Origin: Ruminococcus sp.
Lineage (GTDB): Bacteria; Bacillota; Clostridia; Oscillospirales; Ruminococcaceae
Assembly (NCBI GenBank): GCA_017519415.1
Contig: JAFWSI010000045.1
Coordinates: 62,001-126,000, forward strand
Direction: 5' to 3'
DNA length: 64,000 bases
This document shows positions 29,093 through 36,354 of this stretch, piece after piece. Numbering within the stretch: position 1 is the first letter of the stretch; every line of letters begins with the position of its first letter. A program made the position numbers and the translations under genes. The notes beneath the pieces are model-generated. The model was given only the letters and a program-made list of their open reading frames with translations, was not told the DNA's origin and did no database searches.

Positions 29093-29806
29093 ATGAAAAA
29101 AGGATTATTGACACTTTCGGCATTCGTCTTCGCACTGACACTGGCGGGATGCGGCTCAGACAAGGATAAGGCTGCGGACAAGGACAGCAGCTCATCGGCT
29201 GCGGAAGCCACCACGGCAGTTGAAACGACGACAGCCGAAGAAACGACCGGCACCGAAAAGGAAACTGACAGCAAGGACGAAAAAGACGGCGATAAGGACG
29301 AAAAGGACGGCAGCAGTGCAACCTCTGCGGCTGAGCTGACATTAAATGACATTGCAGGTCCATACCACAAGACAGGCTATATGGCCATGGGCAATTATCC
29401 CGAAGAGCTCGACCCGAAAAAGCTTGTGGAGATAATGAAGGAGGACCCGATGACCATATCCGGGGACGGCACTCTCCACTTCTGCGGCAAGGACTACAAG
29501 CTCAGCAGAGCAGGCGCAAAGGATGAGGAGACCGTATTCAGCATTGAAGGCAGCGGCTTCGATATGAAGGAATATGTGGGATCATCGGCCTGCGGCAGCA
29601 AGGATTACGAGGGTCCGTGTATGTTCGTTTGCAATACGCTGTACATGACGCTGAACGACGAGAAATTCCCCTACACCGAATATAAGGTTATCCTCAAGGC
29701 AAAGGGCAGCGATTCAAGCTTCGGCTATATCTCCGTGGATCAGGGTGAAGCCGACGACTGGGACAGCTGGACCTGGGACGACGAGGATACGACAGTGGAA
29801 GAATAA
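29093..29806 (+). CDS. Secreted lipoprotein with acidic low-complexity linker
   Basis: A 237-residue protein. The type II signal peptide (about 1-20) ends in the lipobox LAGC. A linker of about 65 residues, rich in Thr, Glu, Asp and Lys (TTTAEETTG, DEKDGDKDEKDG), follows, and then a globular domain of about 150 residues with GPYHKTGYMAMGNYPEELDP and ISGDGTLHFCGKDYKL. The C-terminus is strongly acidic (DDWDSWTWDDEDTTVEE). It contains four Cys in the globular part, including SSACGSKDYEGPCMFVC, possibly disulfide-bonded. It has its own promoter; ridA follows 21 bp later. No family is assigned. Confidence 0.83.
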   Translation: MKKGLLTLSAFVFALTLAGCGSDKDKAADKDSSSSAAEATTAVETTTAEETTGTEKETDSKDEKDGDKDEKDGSSATSAAELTLNDIAGPYHKTGYMAMGNYPEELDPKKLVEIMKEDPMTISGDGTLHFCGKDYKLSRAGAKDEETVFSIEGSGFDMKEYVGSSACGSKDYEGPCMFVCNTLYMTLNDEKFPYTEYKVILKAKGSDSSFGYISVDQGEADDWDSWTWDDEDTTVEE

Positions 29807-30214: not shown

Positions 30215-30227
30215 AGCTTACGATCAG

Positions 30228-30264
30228 CTCTCCTGTTCATTCCGGACAGGGGAGTTTCTTTTTT
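30228..30264 (+). terminator. Intrinsic terminator of ridA
   Basis: CTCTCCTGT pairs with ACAGGGGAG (one mismatch) around TTCATTCCGG, followed by TTTCTTTTTT. Confidence 0.82.
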
Positions 30265-30266
30265 GC

Positions 30267-30295
30267 TTGAAATTAAATCTCATATGTGGTATAAT
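30267..30295 (+). promoter_or_regulatory. Sigma-A promoter of the nadA-hydE-coaX operon
   Basis: TTGAAA (30267-30272), a 17-bp spacer, TATAAT (30290-30295). The predicted transcription start (about 30302) falls just before two tandem palindromes. Confidence 0.82.
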
Positions 30296-30502: not shown

Positions 30503-31435
30503 ATGACTGTCCGTGAATTGCAGGATAAAATAATAAAGCTCAAAAAGGAGACGAACACTGCGATCCTCGCCCACTGCTATCAGGCACGGGAAATATGCGA
30601 GATCGCTGATTTCGTGGGCGACAGCTACAAGCTCAGCGTTGACGCAAAGAATGTTGCAGAGGACAATATCCTCTTCTGCGGAGTACACTTCATGGCCGAG
30701 ACCGCAAAAATGCTCTCGCCTCAGAAGCGTGTATTCCTTTCCAACAGGCATGCAGGCTGCCCTATGGCGGAGCAGATGGACAAGGACATGATAAGCGCCG
30801 TAAAGGAGTCCGAGCCCGACCGCACTGTGGTGGCTTATGTCAATACCACCGCCTCGCTCAAGACCGTCTGCGACGTCTGTGTTACCTCGTCAAGCGCACT
30901 CCGCATAGTCAGGGCTCTCGAAAACGACAAGATACTCTTCATTCCCGACTGCAACCTTGGCGACTATATAAAGAAGCAGTGCCCCAAAAAGGATATAAAG
31001 CTCCTTAACGGCGGCTGTCCAACTCATGCAAGGATAACCGTAAAGGAGGTGCTTGCCGCCAAGGAGGAGCACCCCGGCGCCCTTTTCCTCGTTCACCCCG
31101 AGTGTACTCCAAAGGTAGTTGAACTGGCGGATTACGTCGGCTCCACCACGGGTATCATGGACTTCGCAAAGAAGTCGGACAAGAAGGAATTCATCATAGG
31201 CACGGAGAACTCAATCGTTGAACACTTGCAGTACGACTGCCCCGACAAGAAATTCTACCCCGTAAGCCGCGATCTCGTCTGTCATAACATGAAGCTCACC
31301 ACTCTCCCCGACATATACAACGCCCTTGTGGGTATTGGCGGCGGCGACGGCGAAGCCTTTGAGATCATCATGGACGACGAGCTCATTGCACAGGCAAGAA
31401 AATGCATAGATGAAATGATAAGGCTGGGCGGCTGA
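30503..31435 (+). CDS. nadA: Quinolinate synthase
   Basis: NadA condenses iminoaspartate with dihydroxyacetone phosphate to quinolinate in de novo NAD synthesis, using an oxygen-sensitive [4Fe-4S] cluster. The 310-residue protein is of normal size. It shows ILAHCYQAREICEIADFVGDS (about 20), GVHFMAETAKML (about 72), TVCDVCVTSSSALRIV (about 122), LFLVHPECTPKVVE (about 195) and VCHNMKLTTLPDIYNAL near the C-terminus; the last three blocks contain the cluster cysteines. nadB and nadC are not in the window. It heads an eight-gene operon; hydE starts 1 bp after its stop. Confidence 0.96.
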   Translation: MTVRELQDKIIKLKKETNTAILAHCYQAREICEIADFVGDSYKLSVDAKNVAEDNILFCGVHFMAETAKMLSPQKRVFLSNRHAGCPMAEQMDKDMISAVKESEPDRTVVAYVNTTASLKTVCDVCVTSSSALRIVRALENDKILFIPDCNLGDYIKKQCPKKDIKLLNGGCPTHARITVKEVLAAKEEHPGALFLVHPECTPKVVELADYVGSTTGIMDFAKKSDKKEFIIGTENSIVEHLQYDCPDKKFYPVSRDLVCHNMKLTTLPDIYNALVGIGGGDGEAFEIIMDDELIAQARKCIDEMIRLGG

Positions 31436-31436
31436 T

Positions 31437-32474
31437 ATGACGGAAACAGTCCATAAGCTTTACACCTCGGGCGATCTCTCTGACAGCGAGCTGAAAGCCC
31501 TTATAGAGACCGATGACATGAAAGCAGCGGAGCTCCTCCGAAGCTGCGCCGATGAGGTAAGGCAGAAAAGCTACGGGAAAAAGGTCTTTCTCCGCGGACT
31601 CATAGAGGTATCCAGCTATTGCAGGAACGACTGTCTTTACTGCGGTATACGCCGCAGCAACAGTGCTGCGGAGCGGTACAGACTGTCCCGTGAGGATATA
31701 CTCGCCTGCTGTGAAAACGGCTATGAGCTGGGCTTCCGCACATTTGTGATGCAGGGAGGCGAGGACGCATTCTTCACCGACGACTTCCTCTGTCCGCTCA
31801 TATCCGAAATTAAGGAAAAGTACCCGGACTGCGCGGTGACCCTCTCCCTCGGAGAGCGCTCCACCATGAGCTATGAACGGCTCAAAGAGGCAGGAGCGGA
31901 CAGATATCTGCTCCGTCACGAAGCAGCTTCTCCCGGGCTGTATTCAAAGCTCCACCCGCAGGAGATGAGCCTTGAGAACCGTAAGGAATGCCTTTTCACC
32001 CTGAAGAAGCTTGGCTATCAGGTGGGCGCGGGCTTCATGGTGGGAGCTCCGTACCAGACTACTGACCATATCATCGCTGACCTGCGCTTCCTGCAGGAGC
32101 TACGGCCGCAGATGATAGGCATAGGTCCCTTCGTTCCCCACCACAATACTCCCTTTGCAGCCGAAAAGGGAGGTACTCTCGGGCTTACGCTGAGACTTCT
32201 GGGTATACTCAGGCTCATGTTCCCGAAGGTACTGCTGCCTGCCACAACGGCTCTCGGCACGATAGCTCCCAACGGCAGGGAGCTTGGCCTGCAAACGGGC
32301 TGCAACGTGGTAATGCCCAATCTTTCACCTGTAAAAGTAAGGAAAAAGTACGACCTGTACGACAATAAGATATGCACGGGCGAGGAGGCGGCGGAATGCC
32401 GCGGCTGTCTGCAAAGAAGAATCGAGTCCGCAGGCTACAAAATAGCGCAGGAGCGCGGCGATGCAATAATCTGA
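31437..32474 (+). CDS. hydE: [FeFe]-hydrogenase maturase HydE (radical SAM)
   Basis: HydE is one of three maturases (HydE, HydF, HydG) building the diiron subcluster of [FeFe]-hydrogenase. The 345-residue protein has SSYCRNDCLYCGIRR (about 60-74), the CxxxCxxC that holds the radical SAM cluster, in the exact HydE context. Downstream are TFVMQGGED, RYLLRHEAASPGLYSKLHP (about 156-174), GAGFMVGAPYQT and IGPFVPHHNTPF (about 224), all HydE-like. The main alternatives, BioB or PylB, fit less well. It follows nadA by 1 bp. hydF, hydG and hydrogenase genes are not nearby. Confidence 0.92.
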   Translation: MTETVHKLYTSGDLSDSELKALIETDDMKAAELLRSCADEVRQKSYGKKVFLRGLIEVSSYCRNDCLYCGIRRSNSAAERYRLSREDILACCENGYELGFRTFVMQGGEDAFFTDDFLCPLISEIKEKYPDCAVTLSLGERSTMSYERLKEAGADRYLLRHEAASPGLYSKLHPQEMSLENRKECLFTLKKLGYQVGAGFMVGAPYQTTDHIIADLRFLQELRPQMIGIGPFVPHHNTPFAAEKGGTLGLTLRLLGILRLMFPKVLLPATTALGTIAPNGRELGLQTGCNVVMPNLSPVKVRKKYDLYDNKICTGEEAAECRGCLQRRIESAGYKIAQERGDAII

Positions 32475-32523: not shown

Positions 32524-33468
32524 ATGCGAGTACGTTTCCATCTGCCTGATTTTTCAGTAAATTTCAAGCTCAACCTGCTGTTCACCGAAATGCTCTCCCA
32601 CCGTCCCGAGCTTTTCCGCGAGGGAGTGGAGATAGCTTCCTTTTACGGCGTTTTCCCGCCCTCACTTTGGAACGGCGGCAGGACTCAGGGAGGCGTATGC
32701 GACAAGAACTTTGTCAGGAACGTCATCAAGACCTTCAATGACAGAGGAATACCCCTCCGCTTTACCTTCACGAATCCCGCTCTCGAGAAAAAGCACCTCA
32801 ACGACCCCTTCTGCAATATGGTGCTGAATATGGCCAACAACGGTCTCAACGAGGCTATCGTGATGTCTCCCATGCTTGAGGACTATATCCGCCGCAATTT
32901 CCCCGACTATAAGCTCACCAGCTCCAGCTGCAAGCGCCTGAATACTCTCGAGGGACTTCTCGGCGAGCTGAAAAAGGATTACCACATAGTCGCAATGGAC
33001 TACGACCTCAACAACAGGTTCGACCTCCTTGAACAGATACCCGAGGAGTACAGACCCCGTATAGAATTTCTCTCAAACGCCTGCTGCGAGCCCAACTGCC
33101 CGAGGCGCTCGGCGCATTACCATTCCATAGGCGTGCAGCAGATCGCCTACAACGAGCATATCAGAAAGTATCCCAATCTCCCCTTCAATGCGGAGAAATA
33201 CGACCCCGACCACTTCCGCGACTGCCCCTGCTCCCAAAGAGGTCTCTTTGAGATAAGGGGGCTCCGCACTCACATATCTCCCGAGGATATATGGGAGAAA
33301 TACGTTCCCATGGGCTTCGAGCAGTTCAAGATAGAGGGCAGGACGGCAAGCCCCATAAACGTGCTCGAGACCTATATGTACTACATGGCAAAGCCCGAAT
33401 GCCGTGACGAAGCGCGTTTCACCCTGCTGAAATCTCTGGAGAATTCGGGCGCTATGGTATTCAAATAA
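32524..33468 (+). CDS. U32-like cysteine-rich protein, tandem paralogue 1 of 4
   Basis: A protein of 314 residues. It begins MRVRFHLPDFSVNFKLNLLF and contains WNGGRT (50-54), TFTNPALE (81-88), LTSSSCKRL (131-139), MDYDLNN (158-164), SNACCEPNC (184-192), CPC (234-236) and GFEQFKIEGR (264-273). The last motif resembles the KIEGR signature of peptidase U32 / TrhP / UbiU-type TIM barrels, which bind a [4Fe-4S] cluster through four Cys. Candidate ligands here are Cys188, Cys192, Cys234 and Cys136 or Cys236. No signal peptide. AAGGAG precedes the start. The U32 relation is an inference from motifs; the substrate is unknown. It is visually closest to paralogue 2. Confidence 0.75.
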   Translation: MRVRFHLPDFSVNFKLNLLFTEMLSHRPELFREGVEIASFYGVFPPSLWNGGRTQGGVCDKNFVRNVIKTFNDRGIPLRFTFTNPALEKKHLNDPFCNMVLNMANNGLNEAIVMSPMLEDYIRRNFPDYKLTSSSCKRLNTLEGLLGELKKDYHIVAMDYDLNNRFDLLEQIPEEYRPRIEFLSNACCEPNCPRRSAHYHSIGVQQIAYNEHIRKYPNLPFNAEKYDPDHFRDCPCSQRGLFEIRGLRTHISPEDIWEKYVPMGFEQFKIEGRTASPINVLETYMYYMAKPECRDEARFTLLKSLENSGAMVFK

Positions 33469-33479
33469 GGAGTGATATT

Positions 33480-34433
33480 ATGCGAGTAAGATTTCATCTT
33501 CCCGATTTTGCCGAGCACTTCAAGCTCAACCTCGTATTCGCCCATATGCTGAAGGCACGTCCCGACTATTTCCGCGAGGGCGTGGAGATAGCTTCCTTCT
33601 ACGGCGTTTTTCCGCCCTCACTTTGGAACGGCGGCAGAACTATCGGGGGCCAGTGTGACGAAAGCTTCGTAAGAGGAGTACTCAGGACCTTCAACGACCT
33701 CGGCATACCTCTCCGCTTCACCTTTACAAATCCCGTTCTCGAGGAGGAGCACCTCTACGACCCATTCTGCAACATGGTAATGAGGCTTGCGGACAACGGT
33801 CTCAACGAGGTTATAGTCAACTCCCCGCTGCTGGAGGACTATATCCGCAAGACCTATCCGAACTACAAGCTGACAAGCTCCACCTGCAAGAGACTTGACT
33901 CCATAGATGGTCTCCTCGGGGAGCTCAGAAAGGATTATCATATCGTGGTAATGGACTACGACCTGAACAACCGCTTCGACCTCCTCGAACAGATACCCCC
34001 TGAGGACAGGCCCCGCGTGGAGCTGCTGTCCAACGCCTGCTGCGAGCCGGGCTGCAAGAACAGGAAGCTGGAATACGACCTCATCGGCAAGCAGATGATA
34101 ATCTACAACGAGCACCTGAAAAATCACCCCGACAAGCCCTTCAATATCGCAGACTATACCGACGACAGCGTTTCCAACAGGATACACTGCCGCTGCCGCG
34201 AGCGCACCCTTTATGAGATAAAGGATCTCCGCACCCATATCTCTCCCGACGATATATGGGAGAAATACGTTCCCATGGGCTTCGAGCAGTTCAAGCTCGA
34301 GGGCAGGACGGCGGGCAACCTCTACCTCATAGACAACTATATGTATTACATGACAAAGCCCGAATGCCGCGACGAGGCAAGGATGATGTTCTTCTACAAC
34401 CTCGATTCCAACGGCGTTATACAGTACGAATAA
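33480..34433 (+). CDS. U32-like cysteine-rich protein, tandem paralogue 2 of 4
   Basis: A 317-residue protein beginning 11 bp after paralogue 1, sharing its motifs in order: FHLPDF, FYGVFPPSLWNGGRT, TFTNPVLE, LTSSTCKRL, MDYDLNN, SNACCEPGC, then HCRCRER in place of CPCSQR, and GFEQFKLEGR. Between the two Cys groups it carries a different linker of about 40 residues. The same C-terminal block YYMTKPECRDEAR is present. All candidate cluster Cys are retained. The start has AAGGAGTG upstream. It is probably a functional paralogue with a distinct substrate or a hetero-oligomer subunit; both are inferences. Confidence 0.75.
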   Translation: MRVRFHLPDFAEHFKLNLVFAHMLKARPDYFREGVEIASFYGVFPPSLWNGGRTIGGQCDESFVRGVLRTFNDLGIPLRFTFTNPVLEEEHLYDPFCNMVMRLADNGLNEVIVNSPLLEDYIRKTYPNYKLTSSTCKRLDSIDGLLGELRKDYHIVVMDYDLNNRFDLLEQIPPEDRPRVELLSNACCEPGCKNRKLEYDLIGKQMIIYNEHLKNHPDKPFNIADYTDDSVSNRIHCRCRERTLYEIKDLRTHISPDDIWEKYVPMGFEQFKLEGRTAGNLYLIDNYMYYMTKPECRDEARMMFFYNLDSNGVIQYE

Positions 34434-34445
34434 GGAGGCGGTACA

Positions 34446-35402
34446 ATGAAGGCAAGATTTCATCTGCCGGGCATAACGAGAAATTTCTCGTTCAATCTCA
34501 TATTTGCGCATATGCTGAAAAACTGCCCCTACTATTTCCGCGAGGGCGTTGAGATAGCGTCCTTCTTCGGCACCTTCCCACCCGCTGTATGGAACGGCGG
34601 AAGGAACGTCAAGGGCAGATGCGACGAGGGCTTCATAAAGCAGGTGCTGAAGGCCTTCAACGACATGGGCATACCTGTCCGCTTCACCTTCACAAATCCC
34701 TGTATCACAGAGGAGCTCCTCCACGACGAGTTCTGCAACAGGATACTCGAGCTGGCCTACAATGACCTCAACGAGGTCATAGTCAATTCCCAGCTCCTGG
34801 AGGACTATATCCGCGACAAGTACCCGAAGTACAAGCTCACCAGCTCCACCTGCAAGCGTCTCGACACCATAGACGGCCCTATCAGCGAGCTGAAGAAGGA
34901 TTACCACATCGTCGTCCTCGACTACGACCTGAACAATCAGTACGACCTGCTGGAAAAGATACCTCCCGGGGACAGGAACAGGGTGGAGATACTCTGCAAC
35001 ACCCTCTGCGACCCAAAATGCAAGATGCGCAAGGAGCATTACAGGCTGATCGGAGAAAACTCCATAGCCTATAACGAATACGTCAAGAGCGGCAAGACCA
35101 CTCCCTTCAATCTCAGCGATTATTACGAGATAAACGAGGAGAACGCCATACACTGCAAATGCCGCGAAAGGAATTCCTTTGAGATAAGGAAGCTCCCCAC
35201 CCATGTTTCTCCCGACGATATATGGGGAAAGTATATGCCCATGGGATTCGAGCAGTTCAAGCTGGAGGGCAGGACGGCGGGAAGGATATTCCTCACCGAG
35301 AATTACCTCTACTATATGGCAAAGCCCGAATGCCGCGACGAAGCACGTCTTATGCTCCTCTTCAACCTTGAGAAGAACGGCATAATCCGCGTGGACAAGT
35401 GA
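34446..35402 (+). CDS. U32-like cysteine-rich protein, tandem paralogue 3 of 4
   Basis: A 318-residue protein that shares the family scaffold but is more divergent at the N-terminus: FHLPGITRNFSFNLIF, FFGTFPPAVWNGGRN, TFTNPCITEELLHDEFC. It retains LTSSTCKRLD, DYDLNN, CNTLCDPKC (the second and third Cys align with those of paralogues 1 and 2), HCKCRER and GFEQFKLEGR. It has additional Cys in NCPYYF and TNPC. AAGGAGGC precedes the ATG. It lies 12 bp after paralogue 2. The predicted fold is the same as for its neighbours. Confidence 0.75.
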   Translation: MKARFHLPGITRNFSFNLIFAHMLKNCPYYFREGVEIASFFGTFPPAVWNGGRNVKGRCDEGFIKQVLKAFNDMGIPVRFTFTNPCITEELLHDEFCNRILELAYNDLNEVIVNSQLLEDYIRDKYPKYKLTSSTCKRLDTIDGPISELKKDYHIVVLDYDLNNQYDLLEKIPPGDRNRVEILCNTLCDPKCKMRKEHYRLIGENSIAYNEYVKSGKTTPFNLSDYYEINEENAIHCKCRERNSFEIRKLPTHVSPDDIWGKYMPMGFEQFKLEGRTAGRIFLTENYLYYMAKPECRDEARLMLLFNLEKNGIIRVDK

Positions 35403-35415
35403 CGGAGGGCGATAT

Positions 35416-36354
35416 ATGAAAGCACGTTTTCATCTGCCCGGCATAGCGACACACTTCAAATTCAACCTTGTGTTCGCCACGGTGCTGGAGCAGTTTCCCC
35501 AGTATTTCCGCGACGTGGAGATAGCCTCCTTCTACGGCGCCTTTCCCCAGTCAATATGGAACGGCGGAAGGACCCAGGAGGGAGTATGCGACAAGAGATT
35601 CGTAAAGACGGTGCTCCACGCCTTCAACGAAAGGGGCATACCCGTGAGGTTCACCTTCACCAACCCCGCCCTTGAAAAAAAGCACCTGAACGACAAGTTC
35701 TGCAATATGGTGATGAGCCTTGCGGACAACGGTCTCAATGAGGCCATTGTCGTATCGCCGCTGCTGGAGGAATATATCCGCAAAAACTATCCCTCCTTCA
35801 AGCTGACGAGCTCCACCTGCAAACGTCTCAACGACGGTGACAGACTTGCGGCAGAACTGGAAAAGGATTACCATATAGTCGTAGTGGACTACGACCTGAA
35901 CAACAAATTCGATATACTCGAAAAGCTTCCCAACAAGGACAAGTGCGAGTTCCTTGTGAACTCAAACTGCCGCCCGAACTGTCCCGACAGGGCGCAGCAC
36001 TACTACAACGTCGGCGTCCAGCAGATAAACTACGCAAACCATATGCGGAAATATCCCGATCAGCCCTACGATCCCCTGATCTTCGGCGACGGAAAAAATC
36101 AGAACTGCCCCTTTTTCACGCGCAGTATCTTCGACATCCGCGAGCTGAGCACCAATATCAGACCCGGTGATATATGGGAAAAATACCTTCCCATGGGATT
36201 CAGCCAGTTCAAGATAGAGGGCAGGACCGCATGGCTGTTCAACCTCATCGAGACCTATGTATATTATATGGCAAAGCCCGAATTTGCCGACAAGGCACGC
36301 TACACGCTCATAGACTTCTGCACCGCAAACAACGTAATAACAGTTAATGAATAG
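35416..36354 (+). CDS. U32-like protein, tandem paralogue 4 of 4, with altered cysteines
   Basis: A protein of 312 residues with FHLPGIATHFKFNLVF, FYGAFPQSIWNGGRT, TFTNPALEKKHL, LTSSTCKRL, DYDLNN, SNCRPNC and GFSQFKIEGR. It differs from the other three where they carry CxC: here the sequence is NCPFFTR, so the second Cys is Phe. The conserved KPECRDEAR is KPEFADKAR. If the CxC pair helps bind a cluster in paralogues 1-3, this member may bind it differently or not at all. It also lacks one residue in FRDVEIASF. The start has GGAGG upstream. It is followed 11 bp later by the esterase gene. Confidence 0.75.
   Translation: MKARFHLPGIATHFKFNLVFATVLEQFPQYFRDVEIASFYGAFPQSIWNGGRTQEGVCDKRFVKTVLHAFNERGIPVRFTFTNPALEKKHLNDKFCNMVMSLADNGLNEAIVVSPLLEEYIRKNYPSFKLTSSTCKRLNDGDRLAAELEKDYHIVVVDYDLNNKFDILEKLPNKDKCEFLVNSNCRPNCPDRAQHYYNVGVQQINYANHMRKYPDQPYDPLIFGDGKNQNCPFFTRSIFDIRELSTNIRPGDIWEKYLPMGFSQFKIEGRTAWLFNLIETYVYYMAKPEFADKARYTLIDFCTANNVITVNE

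Follow-up and report, generated by a model that had tools for sequence, protein, structure and literature searches.

Four tandem genes of an unnamed U32-like subfamily beside HydE in a Ruminococcus genome

The window considered here, a 64,000-nucleotide stretch of contig JAFWSI010000045.1 from Ruminococcus sp., carries four consecutive genes that belong to a new and unnamed U32-like subfamily with the predicted fold and signature of U32 oxidases. An earlier note, made from the sequence without searches, had described four genes of 312-318 codons, 11-13 bp apart, between HydE and an esterase. All of this was borne out: the four open reading frames (ORFs) are intact, the gaps between copies 1 and 2, 2 and 3, and 3 and 4 measure 11, 12, and 13 bp, respectively, and both flanking genes were recovered with profile models. 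NadA, upstream of HydE, had gone unmentioned. The genes of the locus are as follows:

30503..31435, + strand: NadA, quinolinate synthase (NCBIfam NF006878, 368 bits, cut-off 294)
31437..32474, + strand: HydE (NCBIfam TIGR03956, 559 bits, cut-off 254.6)
32524..33468, + strand: U32-like copy 1, of the HydE-linked lineage; intact ORF, 314 aa
33480..34433, + strand: U32-like copy 2, the one modelled; intact ORF, 317 aa
34446..35402, + strand: U32-like copy 3; intact ORF, 318 aa
35416..36354, + strand: U32-like copy 4, without C236 and C293; intact ORF, 312 aa
36366..37868, + strand: SASA-type carbohydrate esterase-like gene, 11 bp 3′ of copy 4 (PF03629, 72 bits)

The likeness to U32 triosephosphate isomerase (TIM) barrels, proposed in the same note, is backed by a structural model with a fold search, a controlled chain of profile comparisons, and signature residues. 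The predicted structure of copy 2 is a U32-type (beta-alpha)8 barrel, and its best structural match in Foldseek is 5D88. An earlier AlphaFold2 model built from four sequences was poor (predicted local distance difference test score 61.9) and was left unused. Comparison of the family profile with that of seven relatives of 367-488 aa gave 99.6% (E 9.2e-24), and the seven relatives in turn matched 20 U32 reference sequences, comprising E. coli TrhP, RlhA, and UbiU together with clostridial proteins, at 98.9% (E 3e-17). As controls, HydE, NadA, LeuB, and the esterase scored 0.2-1.7% against the family profile, the highest controls overall being the relatives versus HydE (12.9%) and U32 versus HydE (11.1%). 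None of the copies matched the TrhP model NF011996 of NCBIfam (equivalog score 534 bits) at an E of 10. A sequence search of the PDB returned no credible relative for the family, nor for TrhP, and is hence uninformative.

Inspection of a joint alignment holding 93 family members revealed the residues on which TrhP depends. The column of TrhP E162, which corresponds to E181 in the numbering of copy 1 used throughout, is Glu in 93/93 and is followed, in the same order as in TrhP, by a Cys pair (C188 and C192, each 93/93) spaced as CX3C instead of CX6C. The column of TrhP C197 holds Cys in 86 of the 93 and a gap in 7, TrhP C193 has no family counterpart in this alignment, and the terminal KIEGR element is retained with its K and R in 92/93 and its E and G in 91/93. 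In TrhP, E162, C170, and C177 are reported as essential and prephenate as required (PMC6599085). UbiU and UbiV each bind a [4Fe-4S] cluster through four Cys, and eight of ten U32 families are described as having four conserved Cys, with CX6CX15CX3/4C recurrent among them (PMC6747719). For the Fe-S site suggested by the earlier note, only conservation and a rough placement of the Cys in the model speak in favor, and the canonical four-Cys motif is absent. C188, C192, and C234 are the only strictly invariant Cys across 22 diverse and 12 phage sequences. In the copy 2 model, C136 follows strand 5 by 3 residues, C188 and C192 follow strand 7 by 5 and 9, and C237 (C234 of copy 1) sits in an insert before strand 8. 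For the core members C97 or C136 is a candidate fourth ligand; the site may have three Cys and an open iron or be completed by either of these residues, and three rather than four invariant Cys would fit a cluster whose open iron receives the substrate.

Identity to copy 1 is 68% for copy 2, 57% for copy 3, and 59% for copy 4, and all four share C59, C97, C136, C188, C192, C234, and the terminal element in the form FK[IL]EGR, as had been noticed earlier. Residue counts were made on 196 sequences, obtained from 243 family ORFs by filtering on length and identity, of which 189 are core and 7 more distant. C136, C188, C192, and C234 are present in 189/189 core members and C97 in 188/189; C59 is found in 128/189, Cys at position 236 in 61/189, and Cys at 293 in 103/189. 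In the seven distant members C136 is replaced by Thr (7/7) and C97, C188, and C192 are kept (7/7). As described, the CxC pair of copy 4 is missing its second Cys, at position 236, and its KPEC motif the Cys at 293, but the specialized or non-catalytic role that the note derived from this loss is not supported. Position 236 in the copy-1 lineage (n = 78) is Tyr in 59, Phe in 18, and Cys in a single member, window copy 1 being the exception; the copy-4 lineage (n = 9) has Phe at 236 in 9/9 and Tyr (5) or Phe (4) at 293, and members from other genera carry Cys at 293 in 8/33. Because both positions vary across lineages, they are unlikely cluster ligands, and their loss in copy 4 is uninformative on catalysis and was rejected as the mark of a special role. 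Copy 4 retains C97, C136, C188, C192, C234, and FKIEGR. All four copies are under purifying selection: ratios of nonsynonymous to synonymous substitution (dN/dS) against five genomes are 0.040-0.064 for copy 1, 0.067-0.133 for copy 2, 0.061-0.103 for copy 3, and 0.032-0.078 for copy 4, values that are rough since dS between the genomes is 0.85-2.2 and partly saturated.

The four-gene layout, which had seemed unfamiliar, recurs. In a GTDB survey limited to the 80 best loci among 180 relatives, 75 are labelled Ruminococcus, 22 of them R. flavefaciens, and one, two, three, and four copies occur in 29, 38, 2, and 11 loci, respectively, these counts being lower bounds because some loci end early at contig ends. 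HydE immediately precedes the first copy in 76/80 loci, from which it follows that the layout is not due to chance; NadA is second upstream in 70/74 readable loci, and the esterase cluster lies downstream of the array in 44/80. In a FastTree phylogeny, each of window copies 2, 3, and 4 belongs to a group of nine rows that all hold the same position (100% local support), and copy 1 to a group of 18 first-position rows. Since copies group by position across genomes, the duplications predate these species, and by this sequence grouping each copy is an old lineage, kept separately. Recent duplication was rejected on these grounds, as was a chance arrangement or assembly artefact, arrays with orthologous positions being found elsewhere. 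To our knowledge, there is no U32 precedent for four old lineages in a row. A tandem U32 pair is on record, trhP1 and trhP2 of B. subtilis being paralogues within one operon (PMC6599085). The neighborhood survey that had been proposed for copy number showed that arrays and the link to HydE recur within Ruminococcus, with solitary copies predominating in the other genera sampled.

Members occur in 21 of 148 genomes of the taxonomic family, with adjacent copies listed only for the genome of the window and one other (G019). Across the class, 23/391 genomes gave matches, namely 6 core, 5 mid-level, and 12 weak (<42 bits). PF01136 proteins are present in 139/148 genomes of the taxonomic family, including all 21 that carry the new subfamily, so that replacement of absent TrhP- or RlhA-type proteins is not supported. 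The genome of the window, an assembly 74.87% complete, yielded no fifth copy, only a distant relative of 489 aa with 22% identity. Its contig C51 (L005:622-2088) encodes a U32-like protein of 488 aa that has repeats rich in Gly, Pro, and Ala, ends in a tail rich in Cys, and belongs to a second uncharacterized U32-like group. Among 57 neighbors of solitary copies at 17 loci (60 listed, three left out; genes called greedily from ORFs, some possibly wrongly), no partner gene recurred, the commonest Pfam family being ABC transporter (3/57). A mid-level member stands directly behind cobyric acid synthase on a 627-kb plasmid of Lachnospira eligens (L170:4986-5903).

Three scans of viral contigs revealed relatives on 21 contigs, a few of them near-duplicates or fragments. 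Five of the 21 (L183/L194, L184/L193, L185, L187/L192, and L195) carry two divergent members in tandem, in gene sets that also hold two radical S-adenosylmethionine (SAM)-like genes, called by their CxxxCxxC motif, and a precursor-like ORF. Against the library, both radical SAM-like genes of L183 and the second of L184 score below cut-off, and only a radical SAM-glycosyltransferase fusion upstream in L194 exceeds it. The precursor-like ORFs share a related N-terminus at weak similarity (23-29% identity) and have a variable C-terminus, often rich in Asn/Ser/Gly or in Cys; 0/5 have a Pfam match. Two YcaO genes belong to the set in L187 and glycosyltransferase domains to those in L193 and L194, and the L169 member has a glycosyltransferase immediately ahead of it, the surrounding genes being read as those for tail fibre and lysis. 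The L183 set ends, after the U32-like pair and an ORF of 215 aa, with a 3-deoxy-D-arabino-heptulosonate 7-phosphate (DAHP) synthase (L183:9442-10260, TIGR01361, 350 bits), which fits a need for prephenate and was seen once. The first member of the phage pairs has lost GGR and KIEGR in 5/5 and retains a close Cys pair (CxxxC in 2, CxxC in 3). These sets may be regarded as leads to peptide or protein modification. A literature search joining U32 with ribosomally synthesized and post-translationally modified peptides (RiPPs), radical SAM, and YcaO found no paper in the library searched, nor did one joining "U32 peptidase" with "biosynthetic gene cluster" or one on "peptidase U32" in Ruminococcus flavefaciens; for phage, radical SAM, and RiPP, the ten matches listed, out of 52, looked unrelated.

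Comparison with characterized systems places the subfamily beside several of them. TrhP and TrhP1-TrhP2, which perform prephenate-dependent tRNA U34 hydroxylation, share the U32 core, the essential Glu and Cys, KIEGR, and tandem paralogues (PMC6599085), whereas the window copies have about 310 aa, stand up to four in a row, and lack a counterpart of one canonical Cys. UbiU and UbiV of E. coli, proteins of anaerobic ubiquinone hydroxylation with a [4Fe-4S] cluster in each, are likewise U32 proteins of 300-330 aa from adjacent genes, and the first ligand of UbiV lies far upstream, as C97 would in this family (PMC6747719). However, their Cys spacing differs, UbiTUV is reported from proteobacteria and the present family occurs in Bacillota, and UbiV lacks the KIEGR element found in all four window copies; in its loss the first members of the phage pairs resemble UbiV. 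RlhA, which hydroxylates C2501 of 23S rRNA and is prephenate-linked, has the U32 signature (PMC6599085), but the E. coli protein is 653 aa long; the genome of the window encodes a PF01136 protein of 689 aa at another place (L163). The protein in 5D88, Mk0906, is the best structural match yet only 10-14% identical, and a review calls it uncharacterized (PMC11574389). Finally, the 367-488-aa group (L005, L128, L130, L132, L133, L134, and L139) shares CxxxC in 7/7, read by eye, and differs by an extra C-terminal Cys-rich tail and in the residues that could serve as fourth ligand; a search for a named function of this U32-like group gave none.

With a probability of about one half, we read these genes as a divergent subfamily of U32 oxidases, [4Fe-4S] barrels that would transfer oxygen to a macromolecule independently of O2, with one old lineage per copy. 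Each protein would be a (beta-alpha)8 barrel most likely holding the cluster through C188, C192, and C234; the fourth ligand would be C97 or C136, which almost every bacterial core member has, or else the substrate. Using E181 and the KIEGR element as well, the protein would most likely transfer oxygen to the macromolecule from an organic donor, for example prephenate, and each old lineage has probably kept its own target site. As the phage relatives lie in gene sets resembling those for peptide modification, proteins or peptides are at least as likely a substrate as RNA. Oxygen addition to macromolecules in strict anaerobes is a young field with few characterized enzymes, to which this work adds a gut subfamily missed by curated models; the gene context of the phage relatives indicates a class of substrate, and natural comparisons are available among cultured Ruminococcus flavefaciens strains, which carry one to four copies.

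A number of observations weigh against this reading. Against the curated PF01136 (Peptidase_U32) cut-off of 22.4 bits, copies 1, 2, and 4 reach 16.4, 17.9, and 15.8 bits and copy 3 gives no match; of the checks proposed earlier, the structure prediction of copy 2 agreed with U32 and the Pfam search fell short. Direct comparison of the family and U32 profiles is weak (82.8% with the 20 good sequences; 91.8% with 4 sequences and 63.7% with 22, two of which, L239 and L244, were in wrong frames). The Foldseek alignment to 5D88 is loose, with template modelling scores of 0.48/0.59, 6.3 A, and 14% identity. Furthermore, C188 aligns one column before TrhP C170 and C192 four before C177, the published motif CX6CX15CX3/4C is not kept, and C97 lies in the helix after strand 3 of the model, not directly after a strand. 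The DAHP synthase appears in one of the five phage gene sets, where it could have a different purpose, and the bacterial loci looked at showed no recurrent RiPP-like or RNA-modification partner. Because it fell short in tests of both the Pfam score and the four-Cys motif, the family is not filed as a PF01136 member.

A bolder form of the oxidase reading, tentative and on balance unlikely, takes the phage and Ruminococcus versions alike as prephenate-using, O2-independent hydroxylases of protein or ribosomal-peptide side chains. Phages would pair them with radical SAM, YcaO, and glycosyltransferase enzymes for the hypermodification of virion or precursor proteins rich in repeats, one phage would bring a DAHP synthase to raise prephenate, and this Ruminococcus group would have expanded to four lineages for proteins of its own; such enzymes would be the anaerobic counterpart of the 2-oxoglutarate protein hydroxylases. 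The RiPP tailoring layout of a precursor peptide with modifying enzymes is confined to the phage relatives, being absent from the window and the bacterial loci looked at. That each copy hydroxylates a different tRNA or rRNA pyrimidine, after the example of TrhP and RlhA, is possible, if rather improbable. TrhP, TrhP1/TrhP2, and RlhA are the RNA-modifying U32 proteins described in the sources consulted (PMC6599085, PMC11574389), bacterial copies that occur singly have unrelated neighbors, as might be expected of an RNA enzyme acting on its own, and Ro-like DUF2828/DUF7788 genes, whose products may bind RNA, lie upstream in two phage contigs. However, neither Pfam nor NCBIfam detected an added RNA-binding domain in the window copies, the context-rich phage relatives adjoin radical-SAM-like, YcaO, glycosyltransferase, and precursor-like genes, and the matches listed for many of the 139 PF01136-positive genomes include U32 proteins with lengths near 410-430 and near 690 aa. 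We take these two size classes, by length, to be TrhP1- and RlhA-like.

Old paralogues kept together in tight tandem, and phage pairs whose first member lacks GGR and KIEGR and keeps the Cys pair, would suit a heteromeric complex mixing catalytic and partner copies after the manner of UbiU-UbiV or TrhP1-TrhP2. Such a complex is nonetheless distinctly doubtful, as the full signature is intact in each of the four window copies; moreover, 29/80 loci show one copy (some at contig ends) and the other genera sampled are mostly solitary, so a partner is seemingly not needed. Peptidase activity, in line with the old family name and the weak PF01136 matches, is highly improbable, since the conserved residues are the oxidase signature and the U32 biochemistry reviewed is Fe-S hydroxylation (PMC11574389). 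An equally slim chance attaches to the array assisting HydE, or hydrogenase maturation, as an accessory factor. HydE is the radical SAM maturase of the H-cluster, and its place directly upstream in 76/80 loci is the point in favor. Among the first 100 genomes in both searches, though, 11 carry the family and 5 of these (G002, G021, G055, G079, and G090) have no HydE match of at least 100 bits, a sixth (G056) having only a HydE fragment; in 30 HydE loci with short flanks, the family adjoins HydE only in two from the genus of the window. The HydE partner was rejected on both counts, and the linkage of NadA and HydE to the array seems to be an accident confined to this Ruminococcus group. In one genome (G059, L214:1-1430), a NadA-like gene adjoins HydE without the U32-like family.

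Several minor features accompany the phage sets and the window. The RiPP-like sets span L192:5583-14519 (= L187), L193:9206-18052, L194:1423-12317, L185:2785-8157, and L195:4062-10885; some include aldo-keto reductase genes and a presumably UPF0489-like gene. Some genes in L184, L185, L187, and L195 are open only with TAG read as an amino acid, taken as Gln. The DUF2828-DUF7788 genes, presumably Ro/TROVE-like, lie at L180:5904-7532 and L184:5508-7082. Two faecal GenBank "Bacteriophage sp." records with members, L172 and L173, probably represent host bacterial DNA, judging from ORFs that look bacterial (DNA polymerase I-like; SecA-like and TRAP transporter-like). Upstream of NadA, a consensus scan marked two signals:

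30226..30256, + strand: terminator-like hairpin after a RidA-like gene; 13-pair stem and T tail, consensus scan only
30267..30295, + strand: promoter-like site TTGAAA-17-TATAAT with TG before the -10; 11/12 consensus bases, scan only

The hairpin is a possible upstream operon border, and a single transcript from NadA through HydE and copies 1-4 to the esterase is plausible, the sole terminator-like match on the + strand between NadA and the esterase being a weak one within copy 2 (33566-33591). Both kinds of site occur in the region at near chance number, with 11 terminator-like sites found against 8.1 expected and 9 promoter-like sites against 5.8. Further upstream, between LeuB and RidA, a small lipoprotein-like gene with a Ser/Thr/Glu-rich stretch is located at 29093-29806, a position taken by other ORF clusters at other loci.

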